A stretch of DNA of 20,834 nt, from IMG/VR virus record IMGVR_UViG_3300035698_003296, positions 1-20,834 of that record; one strand, 5' to 3'. The DNA is from a virus. Below the pieces are notes generated by a model. It was not told the origin of the DNA and did no database searches. It saw only the letters and a program-made list of their open reading frames with translations. The position numbers and the translations under genes are program-made. Positions 8,748 to 13,758 of the stretch are shown here, in pieces. Every line of letters begins with the position of its first letter. Positions within the stretch are counted from its first letter, which is position 1.

Positions 8748-10228
8748 ATATCCCCATCATCTGATACTACAATATCGTCATAACCAAGTGCCTGAACAAA
8801 TCCGCCGGTAATATTCATTCTCATCTTATGGTATCGGGCTGACGTTTCCATCAAGGCTTCGCCTGTTGCCTCTATAGAAATAGCACTGCCGATATCAGGA
8901 CTACCATCAGTTAAAGAGTCGCGCGTAACACTCTGAATAGTAACAATTGTACTTGAATCCCCCTCAACTAATGGGCGGATAGACTCAAGATAGGAAATTT
9001 TCCCAGCAATAAAATTGTATTCCCTGCTATCTATAACCGCATCCATTGCAGAACCGGTAAAATAACCAACATTGTAATTGGTGTCGATACCACCAAGGCG
9101 CAATTCGCCACCACGGAATGCCTCGCTATCTAACGAAACATCAATAACGTCGATATCACTATAGAGATCATCTAGCTCCTCGACCGTCACACCTGCTGAT
9201 AACGAACGAAAAATAAGGGTCATATCTTTTTCTATATACGCCCATTTCTTTACATCCCAACGGTAAGCAAGCATTTTATTCGGTACACCATTGCTATTAT
9301 TAGCACCAGGGTATGATATAAGATAAAGTTTTTTTATTGGGTCTATTGTAGATGTAACTCTTTCTTTATAATCGCCGTCTAAATCATTGGCAAAGAAGCG
9401 GTCTACTTTTTCTGTTCCTATTGGGATGCTCTCAAGCCCGTTATACTGATAAAAACCTTCGGGGCTGTAATAGAAAGCATTACGTCCATGCGCTACTATA
9501 CTGCCCGGTAAATCACAGCCTCGGGAGTTTTCTACAGTAGGAAAATCAAACACGGCAGGAGAACCCACATAATCCATACGCCGTATTTTATCTTCTTGAA
9601 AAATTACACCGTATTCTTGGTTTCCCACTATACCTGTAATATGCCCACCGTCTGGTAAGTCACGGTATGCAGATTGTGTTTGAGCCGACACCACCCAGTC
9701 GGTAGTATCTAAAATAGAAGGCCAGCGCACACGGCGCGGCTTATAGCCATCAACTGAATCAAACGTGTTAGCAATTACAGGAAAGTTATTAATTGCGGCA
9801 ATATACCGCCCGTTTGGGGCAGTAGCGGATAAATTAGAGAATAAAGTGCTACCTCCTCCTGTAATATAGCGCTGCGTGGCTACATCAATATTAACCGCTA
9901 TAATGTCATCTTGAAACTGTGCGAAATTCCACTTCTCGGTACCTTGAATTGTATAGCCTCCAGATATGGAAACATTATCAAGGGATGTGCTAGAAACAAT
10001 ATATAATTTTGTTTTATCACCAACAAAAAGAACTTCGTTTGATTCAGGGTCACGCCCAGCAACCGCCCCTTGTGGCGTGTCATCTGTGCCTCCAGTCGTG
10101 ATAGGCACAAAATCCTCGAACGGTCCATAGCCTTTTATATATGGCGTAACGTTTCGCACATAGGCAGTGCCCGGGTTTTGATATCCGGAAAGGTCAGGTA
10201 AAAATTCTCCAAATTCTATTTTTGGCAT
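8744..10228 (-). CDS. Probable beta-propeller tail hub/nozzle protein (P22 gp10-like role)
   Basis: The 494-residue product is rich in beta-strand with repeated blade-like segments: SNEVLFVGDKTKLYIVSS, KWNFAQFQDDIIAVN, GRYIAAINNFPVIANTFD, GHITGIVGNQEYGVIFQED, GSIVAHGRNAFYYSPEGFY and KMLAYRWDVKKWAYIE. A PRRVRWPSILDTTDWV segment near 165-180 is typical of podovirus nozzle or tail-stabilisation proteins. Length is close to P22 gp10 (472 residues), which plugs and extends the tail below the adaptor. It directly follows the adaptor gene, sharing one base (TAATG), and its own stop forms an ATGA overlap with the next start. The propeller fold is inferred from the strand pattern and not proven; direct homology with P22 gp10 is not claimed. 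Confidence 0.75.
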   Translation of the reverse strand: MPKIEFGEFLPDLSGYQNPGTAYVRNVTPYIKGYGPFEDFVPITTGGTDDTPQGAVAGRDPESNEVLFVGDKTKLYIVSSTSLDNVSISGGYTIQGTEKWNFAQFQDDIIAVNIDVATQRYITGGGSTLFSNLSATAPNGRYIAAINNFPVIANTFDSVDGYKPRRVRWPSILDTTDWVVSAQTQSAYRDLPDGGHITGIVGNQEYGVIFQEDKIRRMDYVGSPAVFDFPTVENSRGCDLPGSIVAHGRNAFYYSPEGFYQYNGLESIPIGTEKVDRFFANDLDGDYKERVTSTIDPIKKLYLISYPGANNSNGVPNKMLAYRWDVKKWAYIEKDMTLIFRSLSAGVTVEELDDLYSDIDVIDVSLDSEAFRGGELRLGGIDTNYNVGYFTGSAMDAVIDSREYNFIAGKISYLESIRPLVEGDSSTIVTIQSVTRDSLTDGSPDIGSAISIEATGEALMETSARYHKMRMNITGGFVQALGYDDIVVSDDGDI

Positions 10229-10887
10229 TACGGAGTACCTGCATCGCTTCTTATAACGAGAGTAGAGCCACGAGTTAAGTTCTCCCTATCTTCACGATTT
10301 GCGGCATTGATAGCACCACGATATAACATAAGTTGCTGCTCTATCTCTTGCCATTTTTTAAGATAAATACATGCCTCTAAATTACAGGCGAATAGATAAA
10401 TATTGGGATGGTTAGTTAATAGGTTATTTGTAGGTGCTCCATCAGAAAGAGCCGCTAATTTGTAATACTCCATTACAACGCTATAGATAGCGTCCGGTAT
10501 TTTAAATAACACCAAATTAGAGCCTGAGCGGTTATAATGCGTAGGCTTTCCTGTGCCCTCGCTATAAGCGCTTTCATTAGCCTTTTGATTCGTTATATAT
10601 TGCAAATACTGGCGTTGACTTCCCGTTATATAGGGATTGCCCTTAAACCCTCGAAAGCCAGAAGGCAAAGCAACTGTTGCGGAATCTACAACAGTTGAAA
10701 GCGTATCGGATGCCTCAATATCGCTAATGCGCAAAGGTGACGTAAAATACTTGTCCCCTTCGTCGCCGGAACCTTGTATAATGCGCTGTTCTGCAAGAGT
10801 GATAATATCAGCTATATTTGATATGGAGCCGCGCTTCATGTAGCGCAGCACTGCCGATTGTAATTCTGAATATGTGCCTATAGACAT
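10228..10887 (-). CDS. Head-tail adaptor protein (SU10 adaptor/P22 gp4-like role)
   Basis: This 219-residue protein fits the phage adaptor family whose twelve copies sit below the portal and join it to the tail. The N-terminal helices (TYSELQSAVLRYMKR and IADIITLAEQRII) are followed by a beta domain with VALPSGFRGFKGNPYI. The characteristic core follows: YLQYITNQ, a strand 'NLVLFKIPDAIYSVVMEYYKL', a loop LSDGAPTNNLLTNHPNIYLFA, and helices CNLEACIYLKKWQEIEQQL. This 'PD-YSV-M-YY ... SD--PTN-LL--HP-IYL' signature is the main reason for the call. The start at 10887 directly abuts the preceding stop and has AAAGGGG seven bases upstream. It sits between a 113-residue protein and the nozzle gene, as expected for a connector gene. 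Confidence 0.82.
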   Translation of the reverse strand: MSIGTYSELQSAVLRYMKRGSISNIADIITLAEQRIIQGSGDEGDKYFTSPLRISDIEASDTLSTVVDSATVALPSGFRGFKGNPYITGSQRQYLQYITNQKANESAYSEGTGKPTHYNRSGSNLVLFKIPDAIYSVVMEYYKLAALSDGAPTNNLLTNHPNIYLFACNLEACIYLKKWQEIEQQLMLYRGAINAANREDRENLTRGSTLVIRSDAGTP

Positions 10888-11229
10888 TTAGCACCCCTTT
10901 AGTCCAATTTTACCAAGTCCCGTACGCAAGTAAGCATATTCGGGGTCATTCAGTTTACGAATAACCGCAGCTTTATGATTAGGGTCGTAAATATCAATGC
11001 CGTCCTCTAGCTTCCATTTCATAAGAACTACATTAGGAACAAACCCTACATGCTGCATATCGCGGCTTTCTGTATAGCCGTTGTTAGGGTCGTAATTCTG
11101 TGCGTGCTTATTGTCTTCAATGATTTCATCAACATTTTGCTCATAGGTAATGACTGTATCACCTGTCGTAGAGTCGTTATCGTGCCAAACAAGCATACCT
11201 TCATTATCTGTGATAAGGCGCTTAACCAT
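10888..11229 (-). CDS. Conserved-looking 113 aa protein in head-connector region
   Basis: I cannot name this protein. It is acidic and soluble, with an N-terminal beta part (LITDNEGMLVWHDND and GDTVITYEQNVDEIIEDN) and a C-terminal part reading MQHVGFVPNVVLMKWKLEDG, then NHKAAVIRKLNDPEYAYLRTG. The 'VPNVVL-KW--E-GID' and 'RKLNDP-Y--LRTG' phrases resemble a small protein I recall just upstream of adaptor genes in podoviruses with this gene order, where it is generally left unnamed. The start overlaps the pentapeptide gene's stop by one base (TAATG), with AGGCAGG upstream, and its own stop abuts the adaptor start. Candidate roles are a connector or head-completion factor, from context only. Confidence 0.65.
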   Translation of the reverse strand: MVKRLITDNEGMLVWHDNDSTTGDTVITYEQNVDEIIEDNKHAQNYDPNNGYTESRDMQHVGFVPNVVLMKWKLEDGIDIYDPNHKAAVIRKLNDPEYAYLRTGLGKIGLKGC

Positions 11230-11930
11230 TAGTATACCTGCCTTGTTATTATATTGCTGTCATCCATGAGTTCTTTTTTCCGCAATGGAGGCATATAACA
11301 GAAACACATGTCGGCATTGGTAAAATCTACGCCTTCAACTTTAGCTTGGCGCAAATCTACGCCCTGGAGGTTCGCGCCTTTAAAATTGACGTTGGACAAG
11401 TCGCAATCATTCCCGAATATAGCTGCTCGCAAATCAACATTGGATAAATCCATATCGCTTAGATTGTAACCTGAGAAATTCGCACGTTTTCCGTGAATAC
11501 GTGCCTGTTCTTGTGTTTTAAGAACCGCCTCACGAGTAAGCGCATTGCCCGGCAAATCTACTTCGCTTTCTGACTCGCCATCCTGTAGGATAACTATGCT
11601 GTCTTCTTTCGGTGCGGCTTTCGGTGCGGCTTTCGGCGTTTCATCATTAAGGGTGCCAGCAGGTACTTTCTTATTTTCATCTACCCCCGCTAAAGCATCC
11701 AGTGCATTATCAATACCGCCTTCTATTTCGACACTTCCACCTGGTATTTCAATTTTACCATCGGCTAGAAGCTGTTCAAATTTTTTAATTAACTCAGGGG
11801 TGTTCAGCTTCCCGCTTCTCAACGATTGAAATTTATTTGTGCTTGTTAACCAAATTATACCACCTTTTACCAAAGCGTGTTTCGATGCGTCAAACACTTG
11901 GCCTGAACTGTCTTTAACTATATATTGCAT
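11229..11930 (-). CDS. Pentapeptide-repeat protein, probable virion-associated, 233 aa
   Basis: The N-terminal ~65 residues form a small mixed domain (YIVKDSSGQVFDASKH, then GGIIWLTSTNKFQSL). An acidic and Ala/Pro linker follows, with PKAAPKAAPK at about 100-109. From about residue 150 to 209 there is a pentapeptide-repeat run: ANFSG, YNLSD, MDLSN, VDLRA, AIFGN, one extra residue, CDLSN, VNFKG, ANLQG, VDLRQ, AKVEG, VDFTN, ADMCF. Such repeats fold as a right-handed square beta-helix; Qnr and MfpA proteins of this fold mimic DNA and bind gyrase, but many others have unknown roles. Placement between the decoration gene and connector genes suggests a virion or head-fibre component. A terminator-like hairpin lies just upstream, and the start has GGAG seven bases before ATG. 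Confidence 0.8.
   Translation of the reverse strand: MQYIVKDSSGQVFDASKHALVKGGIIWLTSTNKFQSLRSGKLNTPELIKKFEQLLADGKIEIPGGSVEIEGGIDNALDALAGVDENKKVPAGTLNDETPKAAPKAAPKEDSIVILQDGESESEVDLPGNALTREAVLKTQEQARIHGKRANFSGYNLSDMDLSNVDLRAAIFGNDCDLSNVNFKGANLQGVDLRQAKVEGVDFTNADMCFCYMPPLRKKELMDDSNIITRQVY
11607..11638. repeat. 12-bp tandem microrepeat encoding PKAA linker
   Basis: The unit tttcggtgcggc occurs twice exactly and a third time in part. On the coding strand it gives the PKAAPKAAPK linker of the pentapeptide protein. Period 12 keeps the reading frame, so copy number could vary without disrupting the gene. Confidence 0.85.
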
Positions 11931-11942
11931 TTCTTATCTCCG

Positions 11943-11978
11943 ATTAAACAGGGGTGGGCATGCCACCCCCTTTTTAAT
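11943..11978. terminator. Strong GC-rich hairpin, bidirectional-terminator-like, after decoration gene
   Basis: Arms GGGGTGG (11951-11957) and CCACCCC (11963-11969) enclose a five-base loop. Outside these, ATTAAA (11943-11948) can pair with TTTAAT (11973-11978). On the plus strand the stem is followed by TTTTTAAT; on the minus (coding) strand by TGTTTAAT, a weaker U-tract. It begins at the TAA stop of the decoration gene and ends before the pentapeptide gene's ribosome site. It may terminate part of the transcripts or protect the 3' end of the capsid-decoration message. Confidence 0.65.
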
Positions 11979-12763
11979 TAAGCACGTTTCTGAGCTACAT
12001 AAATGTAGTCAACATCCACCACTTTCGACGTAGTAGTACGAGCTTCAATGCCAATAACTGGCGTTAATGCAGTAGATGCAGTTACGGCATTTGCAACTGA
12101 ACCCTCAAGAACTCCATTTATGTAGAAATTTGCAGTGCCTGAGCTGTCAATATCAATTGCCAGTGTGATATAAGTATCTGCCGCCGGTGCAACCGCTGAA
12201 TTAGCAATAGCAGTATCACTATTTGCCTTAACTCCCTGTGTATGGAAGAAATCGTTGGTTTGTGCCGTATCAAACACGAAACAGACCGCATTAGATGCTG
12301 CGCTTGTAATAGTAGTGCCAGAAATAGTAAATGGCATTTCAAGTGTTGTTGTGCCTAATACATCGGTGAAACCTACGTTTAAACATACATCAGCTACAGA
12401 AGTATTAAGGCGCAAACGCGTTTCCATATACAACCCGCCATTAGCAGGAATCCAGTTTAAACCATGAGTAAGGACGCTACCATCTGCTGCCGTGCCTGAA
12501 CCGGCATCACCCGAAGTTAGACGAGCAACCCCACCTGCAACACCTGCCGTCACCGCAGCAATAGCACCTTGGCCGTCAGAGCCTTGTGCAGCACTATATT
12601 GATCTGCAATAACATCACCAAGGAAATCATCGAACAAGGTAGCAAATTGATCATGCCCGGCATATAAGCCCTGGTAAGGGCGTAGTATGAGGGCGGTTTT
12701 TCCAGACAATGCGCTGATAAAATGAGTAGTAGCATCGTCCTGATTAGTTTGATTGAAAGACAT
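11978..12763 (-). CDS. Probable head decoration protein with concanavalin/LamG-like fold, 261 aa
   Basis: This gene follows the major capsid gene and encodes a Thr/Ala/Ser-rich, nearly all-beta protein. The N-terminal ~75 residues include LFDDFLGDVIADQYSAAQ and a Gly/Ala-rich linker. A jelly-roll pattern follows: GGLYMETRLRLN, DVCLNVGFTDV, NAVCFVFDTAQ, then ITLAIDIDSSGTANFYINGV and the closing strands TPVIGIEARTT and VVDVDYIYVAQKR. The 'G--NFYING' strand-turn-strand and final 'DVDYIYV-Q-R' are typical of lectin/LamG-like proteins seen next to capsid genes, which probably decorate the head. ATG 12763 is chosen because AGGAG lies seven bases upstream. A start at 12805 would extend into the preceding hairpin and lacks such a site. 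Family name is uncertain. Confidence 0.7.
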   Translation of the reverse strand: MSFNQTNQDDATTHFISALSGKTALILRPYQGLYAGHDQFATLFDDFLGDVIADQYSAAQGSDGQGAIAAVTAGVAGGVARLTSGDAGSGTAADGSVLTHGLNWIPANGGLYMETRLRLNTSVADVCLNVGFTDVLGTTTLEMPFTISGTTITSAASNAVCFVFDTAQTNDFFHTQGVKANSDTAIANSAVAPAADTYITLAIDIDSSGTANFYINGVLEGSVANAVTASTALTPVIGIEARTTTSKVVDVDYIYVAQKRA

Positions 12764-12784
12764 TGTAATTCTCCTTTTGTTGGC

Positions 12785-12808
12785 AGAGTGCTCCCGAAGG
12801 AGCACCCT
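12785..12808 (-). promoter_or_regulatory. 10-bp stem with TTCG tetraloop after capsid gene (mRNA stability/processing hairpin)
   Basis: On the coding strand AGGGTGCTCC and GGAGCACTCT pair over ten positions (one G-U) around a C(UUCG)G tetraloop, an exceptionally stable RNA loop. It lies six bases after the capsid stop and about a dozen bases before the next gene's AGGAG site. There is no U-tract, so a simple intrinsic terminator is unlikely; a 3'-end barrier or processing site is more likely. Confidence 0.75.
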
Positions 12809-12813
12809 AAATA

Positions 12814-13758
12814 TTAGTTAACGTTCAAATCAGCTACAATACCGCTTGCGGCTTCGTTGCGTGCTTCTAGCGTATATTCGCAAAGAATCTCACGCTTAGC
12901 AGAGTCACCAGTCTTAGCGAGCTCCGTAGACGTGATATTCCGCAAATAAGCCACAGCCCACATATCTTTCTGCAATACAAGAGAAGAACGTGGACGATGG
13001 AAGCGACTAGGAACTACCTGCAATGTTCCAAAATCAGAAACATAGAAGTCTACACCAGCATAGATTTTCTTATCTTCGGATTTATCAAAGCGTGTAGCGT
13101 TTCCTGTAAAGCTAGAAAAAACCTGCTTGTTAAACCCACCAACAAGAACACAATCAGGCATACCACCTGCATCCCAGCAAGTCTGAATCACATTTTTAAG
13201 CTGTGATTCAGTGAAAGCCCTTTGCGTGCCATCGGTTGCCGCCGTATTACCGACTCCACCATCAGAACCGCCAGCGCCACGACTAGCATTAGTAGTTAAC
13301 CAAGACTCAACACCGCCTAAAACACGAGCCGTAGTATTATTGCCGGCATTCTCCGCATTGTTAGAAAGCAAAGCACTTTCCATATCGCGGCGAAGTTCTT
13401 GGCGGCGTTTCTGGACTTGATAATCCATATCGCTACCGCGTCCAGCAGATGTAACGGCTTCTTGGGTGCCAGTCACACGCGCTATCTTAGATGATATTTG
13501 ACACGTATTACTTAAGCGTACCGTAGGGGCGGCAGCAAGAGCATTTCTGCTATCATCGCCTTCAAGCTGTGCATTTGAATCACTAGCGGTTGCCAGTGAA
13601 TCGGTTTGCCACTCGTGTAATGTTGATGTTGCATCAGTAGAGTCACACATATTTAAAAACGGTGTTTCTGTCGGTGCTATATTGTAGATTTGATCGGAAA
13701 GGTCTTCCCGATTACCTACGGCTGCGTAACTAGTTTGTGCATTAGTTGCTAAAGTCAT
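12814..13758 (-). CDS. Major capsid protein (SU10/DUF5309-type HK97 fold)
   Basis: The 314-residue product matches the SU10-like major head protein family (DUF5309). The start is MTLATNAQTSYAAVGNREDL, followed by the family-typical IYNIAPTETPFLNM and then HEWQTDSLA. Further signatures are TCQISSKIARVTGTQEAV with a 'GR-SDMDYQVQKRRQELRRDME' helix (the HK97-fold spine-helix region), LGGVESWL, and a P-domain/A-domain part with CWDAGGMPDCVLVGGFNKQVF and KIYAGVDFYVSDFGTLQVVP. It ends with AKTGDSAKREILCEYTLEARNEAA, also typical. About 300-350 residues is usual for the family. It follows the scaffold gene by 15 bases and has GGGAG eight bases before ATG. Many copies would form the capsid shell, and the downstream UUCG hairpin fits a highly expressed message. 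Confidence 0.88.
   Translation of the reverse strand: MTLATNAQTSYAAVGNREDLSDQIYNIAPTETPFLNMCDSTDATSTLHEWQTDSLATASDSNAQLEGDDSRNALAAAPTVRLSNTCQISSKIARVTGTQEAVTSAGRGSDMDYQVQKRRQELRRDMESALLSNNAENAGNNTTARVLGGVESWLTTNASRGAGGSDGGVGNTAATDGTQRAFTESQLKNVIQTCWDAGGMPDCVLVGGFNKQVFSSFTGNATRFDKSEDKKIYAGVDFYVSDFGTLQVVPSRFHRPRSSLVLQKDMWAVAYLRNITSTELAKTGDSAKREILCEYTLEARNEAASGIVADLNVN

Follow-up and report, generated by a model that had tools for sequence, protein, structure and literature searches.

A stalked pentapeptide-repeat protein in a variable slot behind the capsid gene of an SU10/LUZ24-type phage, a candidate accessory virion protein

A pentapeptide-repeat protein in which a predicted beta-helix is carried on a flexible linker is encoded among the head genes of a short-tailed phage, in an interval whose gene content changes from relative to relative. 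We propose, with confidence slightly better than even, that it is an accessory virion protein of SU10/LUZ24-type phages that works with the LamG-like product of the preceding gene. In this arrangement, the N-terminal ~70 residues would dock the protein on the head or the head-tail vertex, and a flexible linker of ~45 residues would carry the C-terminal domain, a capped three-coil pentapeptide beta-helix that may provide a rigid, exposed binding or spacer surface. Possible targets would be cell-surface or particle-bound ligands, bound alongside the lectin-like fold of the LamG protein. The proposal is built on what was observed: the repeats, the linker, a beta-helix in the predicted structure, the position in the slot and a LamG and pentapeptide pair that recurs.

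Genomic setting

The stretch of DNA analysed (the window) is the whole of virus record G000, 20834 bases, and is presumably a fragment. Its genes are, by their family matches, the late module of an SU10/LUZ24-type short-tailed phage (podophage), in the order terminase, SU10_portal (633 bits), scaffold, SU10_MCP, LamG-like protein, pentapeptide protein, PHROG 3982, SU10_adaptor and PHROG 3287, the last a structural protein that might be called the nozzle from its place. ARAGORN found no tRNA genes in the window, and the defence-system library gave no match. The features around the pentapeptide gene are the following.

12814..13758, minus strand: major capsid protein (SU10_MCP, 330 bits), upstream border of the slot
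11978..12763, minus strand: LamG-like (concanavalin-type) slot protein, the likely partner; Laminin_G_3 at 25.2 bits, below the cut-off of 27.6
11951..11969, minus strand: hairpin between the LamG-like and pentapeptide genes, a terminator-like stem with a weak T tract
11229..11930, minus strand: pentapeptide-repeat protein gene, 233 amino acids, ATG start
10888..11229, minus strand: PHROG 3982 protein (PHROG match), downstream border of the slot
10228..10887, minus strand: SU10 adaptor (73.1 bits)

The initial annotation had recognised the open reading frame and set it between capsid-decoration and connector genes. The reading frame is as claimed, with the minus strand now added, and family scans give the LamG-like, PHROG 3982 and SU10 adaptor genes as neighbours. 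A GGAG lies ~8 nt upstream of the ATG, and the stop overlaps the start of the PHROG 3982 gene on the same strand (TAATG), in tight packing. The GC content of the gene (0.427) and its GC3 (0.38) fall within the range of neighbouring genes, and there is thus no sign of a very recent foreign origin. For the LamG-like protein the inner ATG (12763) is the probable start, in preference to the GTG at 12805, because its relatives begin there.

Repeats and predicted fold

Along the 233 residues, the following parts can be distinguished.

11715..11930, minus strand: N-terminal region, presumed anchor, residues 1-72; homologue in one LamG-bearing contig (L267) only
11571..11714, minus strand: low-complexity linker with PKAAPKAAPKED, residues 73-120; pLDDT about 30-36; shorter in L267
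11484..11570, minus strand: beta-helix N-terminal cap, residues 121-149, with a strand at 123-125 and a helix at 133-145
11301..11483, minus strand: 12 pentapeptide units plus the insertion D175, residues 150-210; about 3 coils of an Rfr beta-helix
11232..11300, minus strand: C-terminal tail, residues 211-233, of low confidence in the AlphaFold2 model

Units 1-5 (A150-NFSG, YNLSD, MDLSN, VDLRA and AIFGN) are followed by the lone D175, and then by units 6-12 (CDLSN, VNFKG, ANLQG, VDLRQ, AKVEG, VDFTN and ADMCF, ending at F210). The dozen or so units that had been read from the DNA, with one residue inserted behind the fifth, are therefore present, as are the small N-terminal region and the PKAA-type linker, whose PKAAPKAAPKED occupies residues 99-110. 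PMC8145042 defines pentapeptide-repeat proteins by a minimum of eight tandem units. Membership of PF00805 was taken as that minimum, with units of the A(D/N)LXX type, and a score above the family cut-off; the protein has 12 units and matches at 50.5 bits (E 1.5e-13; cut-off 20.2). A motif-run score (the longest run) is 10 for this protein, with a maximum of 6 in 5000 composition shuffles and of 4 among 15 other window proteins scored. The same score reaches 12 in two long open reading frames with repeats of another kind (in L085 and L243) and is not specific, so that the Pfam score carries the weight. The repeats are far beyond chance.

The fold was modelled with AlphaFold2 from the single sequence, without an alignment. 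In blocks of ten residues the pLDDT is 29-46 up to residue 120 and 66-90 from residue 121 to residue 210, with a whole-protein mean of 52.6; modelled alone, the N-terminus has a mean pLDDT of 45, a value that is uninformative as to its fold. Foldseek placed Alr1298, Np275 and a designed pentapeptide solenoid at the top; of its 57 matches, one reached E <= 0.001. When these Foldseek matches were re-examined with VIA-align, pentapeptide chains again headed the list, among them Np275 (Z 11.4, rmsd 2.5, 89 residues) and Alr5209 (Z 10.4, rmsd 2.3, 92 residues). The right-handed quadrilateral beta-helix of PF00805 proteins is thus predicted, with consistent support, for residues 121-210. The beta-helix on which the initial annotation had made its reading depend is present in the model, where it resembles solved pentapeptide proteins. 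Np275 and Alr5209, which are small PF00805 proteins, share with the window protein the tandem units, the predicted quadrilateral beta-helix and the N-terminal helical cap. The window protein differs from them in its additional ~120-residue N-terminal region with the linker, in its encoding within a phage head block, and in having three coils where such small members have four. An N-terminal region followed by a flexible linker and a rigid beta-helix, encoded beside a lectin-like fold in a slot whose phiM5 occupants are recorded as virion proteins, fits a stalked surface protein.

Relation to Qnr and MfpA

It had been suggested that the protein is either a decoration or head fibre or a modulator of host gyrase, and the second option is weakened by the comparison with Qnr and MfpA. 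A Qnr/MfpA-like DNA mimic acting on gyrase would share the fold class, and MfpA is indeed among the structural matches, with Z up to 8.5; VIA-align warns that a Z near this value may mean only an arrangement common among repeats. Against such a mimic stand the family model scores, which reach 29.1 of 240 bits for Qnr and 18.1 of 360 bits for MfpA, both short of the cut-offs and far below those of genuine members. MfpA, Qnr and AlbG have 8-9 coils according to the review PMC8145042, and Qnr/MfpA proteins are rod-like dimers, whereas the 12 units of the window protein make three coils, with no confident C-terminal helix. The net charge of residues 146-210 is just -3, and the gene occupies a late head-gene position. 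By sequence, the window protein is not a Qnr/MfpA protein, and a role as gyrase modulator is very improbable.

A variable slot between the capsid and PHROG 3982 genes

The interval between the capsid and PHROG 3982 genes (10888-13758 in the window) is a variable slot in SU10/LUZ24-type phages. Slots were collected from three scans (with the capsid, nozzle-position and portal proteins), two PHROG 3982 loci and six phage records (L085-L090). Removal of loci with identical capsid starts left 144 slots, the window included, and since the best 80 loci were kept per scan, the set is a sample near the window and not a census. In this sample 47 slots are at most 150 nt long (empty) and 97 are larger, up to 4498 nt; two pairs have identical DNA, leaving 142 distinct slots (47 empty, 95 filled). 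The two commonest protein families occur in 47 and 56 loci, and one or both are found in 72 of the 97 filled slots (both in 31); neither is present in the window. Both families are also found in Pelagibacter phage HTVC106P (gp61 and gp60), and in many slots a gp60-like gene lies directly against PHROG 3982. Open reading frames were called mechanically, and some slot frames are therefore spurious.

Against profiles of the gp61-like and gp60-like families the window protein did not rise above shuffles (best HMMER score 3.2 bits). For its N-terminus and the largest slot family hhalign gave a strong score, which was discarded as artefactual: the unrelated LamG protein scored about equally, and once that family was trimmed to its 48 true-length members, the scores fell to shuffle level.

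Some slots carry other kinds of gene. One (L005:2323-4083) encodes a 586-amino-acid O-antigen ligase family protein (Wzy_C, 36 bits), a possible surface-modifying cargo, and three others (L054, L063 and L079) encode proteins that, judged by eye only, are glycosyltransferase- and sugar-nucleotide epimerase-like. At L040:10088-10384 and the next reading frame, adjacent similar gp60-like copies look like a local duplication.

Terminator-like hairpins are frequent in the slot, being found in 36 of the 144 slots (103,647 bases) as compared with about 0.005 per kb between the portal start and the capsid gene, a stretch that is mostly coding. They often lie directly after the capsid gene, and nothing special is therefore said by them about the pentapeptide gene. 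The hairpin of the window, which the scan lists on the plus strand and whose minus-strand stem folds at -16.7 kcal/mol, was absent from a stricter hairpin scan of the 144 slots. Given how common such hairpins are and this failure, no lowering of pentapeptide gene expression is claimed.

Two relatives bear on the nature of the proteins encoded at this position. In Sinorhizobium phage phiM5, which is outside the 144 slots, both slot proteins (Sm_phiM5_13 and _14) are recorded in the notes of the deposited record as detected in the particle proteome. The slot is bounded by Sm_phiM5_15, a PHROG 3982 homologue (E 6.4e-17), and holds a GDSL/SGNH-type protein with a homologue in one sampled locus (L035, E 3.7e-9). 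The record carries no particle-detection note on Sm_phiM5_15 and states no virion location for the slot proteins. In phage SU10, gp10, a candidate minor capsid protein, is placed by coordinates between the capsid protein gp9 and the adaptor gp11. PMC9509320 describes gp10 as having a predicted Ig-like fold, similar to the minor capsid protein of Epsilon15 and to the N-terminus of the phi29 head fibre, and reports that no density was seen for it in the SU10 map. Sm_phiM5_13 and _14, SU10 gp10 and HTVC106P gp61 and gp60 thus share with the window protein the position from the major capsid gene to PHROG 3982 or the adaptor; unlike it, none is a pentapeptide protein by Pfam.

Recurrence of a LamG-like and pentapeptide pair

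The LamG-like query alone, searched against viral contigs, returned six loci (L267-L272), fetched without reference to the repeats. One (L272) was set aside, having matched none of six SU10-type profiles; in the other five, all SU10-type modules, the LamG relative comes immediately after the capsid gene. The relatives are 43-54% identical to the LamG-like protein of the window, and three that were scanned gave no Pfam match. Repeating the search with an alignment recovered five of these six contigs and added none; in the open reading frames of a 253-locus collection, a LamG profile picked out no further clear member. In annotated phages, no match was found to the LamG protein, P0008 or P0007.

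The reading frame after LamG in L267 is an N-terminal homologue of the window protein (phmmer E 3.1e-6; E 8e-4 in the reverse search of a larger reading-frame set). Over residues 1-150 the two have a global score of 75.5, the maximum of 1000 shuffles being 36.5. The homologue resembles the window protein in having a charged linker rich in Pro, Ala and Lys, and perhaps in a cap helix, and ends with its contig at residue 114, where the repeats would begin. In L267 the capsid protein is 58% and the LamG protein 48% identical to that of the window.

In L268-L271 the reading frame after LamG encodes 164 amino acids and matches PF00805 in all four records (34.3 bits in L268 and 34.2 in L270), above the cut-off. 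It is followed by PHROG 3982, one small reading frame and the adaptor. The neighbours and their order are those of the window; the protein differs in an N-terminus unrelated to that of the window protein (751 of 1000 shuffles score as well) and in more degenerate repeats. For the repeat parts the likeness is weak, being equalled in 25 of 1000 shuffles. The L268 and L270 capsid proteins are 96% identical; the four contigs count here as a single lineage. In the pentapeptide gene these two records differ at 6 synonymous and 2 nonsynonymous sites, small numbers that suggest maintenance of the gene.

Between the window and L268, the LamG protein is 51% identical, as against 31% for the capsid protein, 32% for the portal, 25% for the scaffold, 22% for PHROG 3982 and 23% for the adaptor. 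LamG being far more alike than the capsid, portal or adaptor, its gene seems to have been exchanged between lineages, and the pentapeptide neighbour beside it is present in both. Since the N-termini are unrelated and the repeats weakly alike, the pair may have arisen on two occasions, or else diverged strongly.

When the window is left out, having been chosen for its repeats, a pentapeptide gene is found in the one LamG-slot lineage that is decidable (1 of 1) and in none of 143 other slots, by a phmmer search of reading frames for all slots and by PF00805 for virus records. The pair is represented by three lineages, of which L267 is cut off by its contig end and another is the window itself; an association beyond the window is suggestive.

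Pentapeptide genes in the lineage and in other phages

Within the lineage such genes are rare. In the PENTAPEPTIDE protein search, PF00805 was run against 237 distinct virus records reached through SU10-type loci, many of them short fragments (L122, L131 and L137 were left out, their contigs being already included). The first 82 records held none above the cut-off; two weak matches at 12.6-12.7 bits (G015 and G018) lie below it and are not counted. Further batches gave none in 49 records (two of them repeats), one in 49, none in 50 and none in nine of a 15-record batch. The one exception, a 41-kb contig (G149, holding L167), has strong pentapeptide matches at both of its ends (30-263 and 40805-41032), which could be the halves of a single gene if the genome is circular or permuted; they lie outside the stored locus, and L167 is not among the 144 slots. 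A phmmer search with the window repeats over the reading frames of the 253 loci and the window found the window and three phage loci only, the latter fetched because they hold pentapeptide genes, with one further match at E 8.8. Apart from the window and its LamG-bearing relatives, no pentapeptide match was found in the slots examined.

Across phages, 278 of 50,697 records match the repeat stretch of the window in PENTAPEPTIDE genes at E 0.1 or better. The surroundings of seven other pentapeptide stretches were read, and one lies among annotated head genes. This is Eggerthella phage PMBT5, in which the gene is near a Lar-like gene. PMC9394477 lists six PMBT5 virion proteins by mass spectrometry, the pentapeptide protein not among them, and attributes the low number to low titre. 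The stretches read in Rheinheimera Barba1S, Bordetella IFTN6, Caulobacter RW, ctfPj964, Vibrio CP-T1 (where the match is under no annotated gene) and Rhizobium TM3_3_14B hold no annotated capsid or portal gene; those of Rheinheimera and Caulobacter consist nearly entirely of hypothetical proteins, so that head genes are not excluded there. The view that the fold is unusual in a head block is therefore borne out within this scope. In phage L, PMC8022706 places pentapeptide repeats in the early left operon. Literature searches, with few subscription journals covered, brought up no title or abstract opening that describes a phage virion with a pentapeptide protein in it.

For the whole protein or its N-terminus, no homologue was confirmed in viral or genome contigs by scans that need exact 8-residue seeds and hence find only close relatives; L267 was reached by the LamG-led search only. 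A search of annotated phages with the N-terminus returned 3 matches, none better than E 3. Apparent tblastn matches of residues 118-149 to other phage pentapeptide proteins were discarded, as the alignments slide one repeat run over another. The stalked pentapeptide architecture was found in no annotated phage, and its place is of a known kind.

Role of the protein

Of the two roles first offered for the protein, that of a decoration or head fibre gains support, by analogy, from the phiM5 particle records, from SU10 gp10 and from the recurrent LamG and pentapeptide pair. The gene lies beside the major capsid gene in a variable slot, as would that of a decoration or head-fibre protein, and by analogy with the phiM5 slot proteins its product may sit on the virion head. 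Such a role in the virion is, on this reasoning by analogy, slightly likelier than not. Several points count against it. Some slots hold genes unlikely to encode virion parts (the ligase family gene of L005 and, by eye, those of L054, L063 and L079). SU10 gp10 is without density, the PMBT5 protein is missing from the few virion proteins found, and the window and L268 pentapeptide proteins share no N-terminus.

Alternatively, the protein may be a late-expressed accessory (moron) product that stays out of the virion and works inside the host, on superinfection, the envelope or a host protein for instance, from a slot that tolerates insertion. The Wzy_C family protein in the L005 slot is of this kind, six of the seven other phage stretches (two nearly all hypothetical) have no annotated capsid or portal gene nearby, and the PMBT5 protein, encoded near a Lar-like gene, agrees with it. 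A surface protein, however, is the better fit for the anchor-linker-display layout and the recurrent pair, and the phiM5 slot proteins are recorded in particles, so that action in the cell is unlikely, though to be taken seriously. A factor in neck or connector assembly, functionally linked to PHROG 3982 and the adaptor through translational coupling, would account for the stop-start overlap and the location by the adaptor gene. Yet 47 of 144 slots are essentially without a gene between capsid and PHROG 3982, which shows that relatives assemble without one, and in many others it is a gp60-like gene that abuts PHROG 3982; an assembly role is accordingly improbable.

Significance

The best-studied bacterial pentapeptide proteins act on gyrase. 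Phage members are frequent, as the 278 records indicate, and the cases examined are without an assigned experimental function. It is a tentative proposal, held at somewhat less than even confidence, that SU10/LUZ24-type phages exchange a surface cassette of a LamG-like and a stalked pentapeptide protein in which the fold is a displayed element of the virion. If this is true, the stalked version beside a LamG-like protein, after the capsid gene, would give the pentapeptide fold a virion role, and the rigid beta-helix would join the parts with which phages decorate their heads. For annotation, it is useful to know that this podophage lineage exchanges its surface and accessory genes in the interval from the capsid gene to PHROG 3982.
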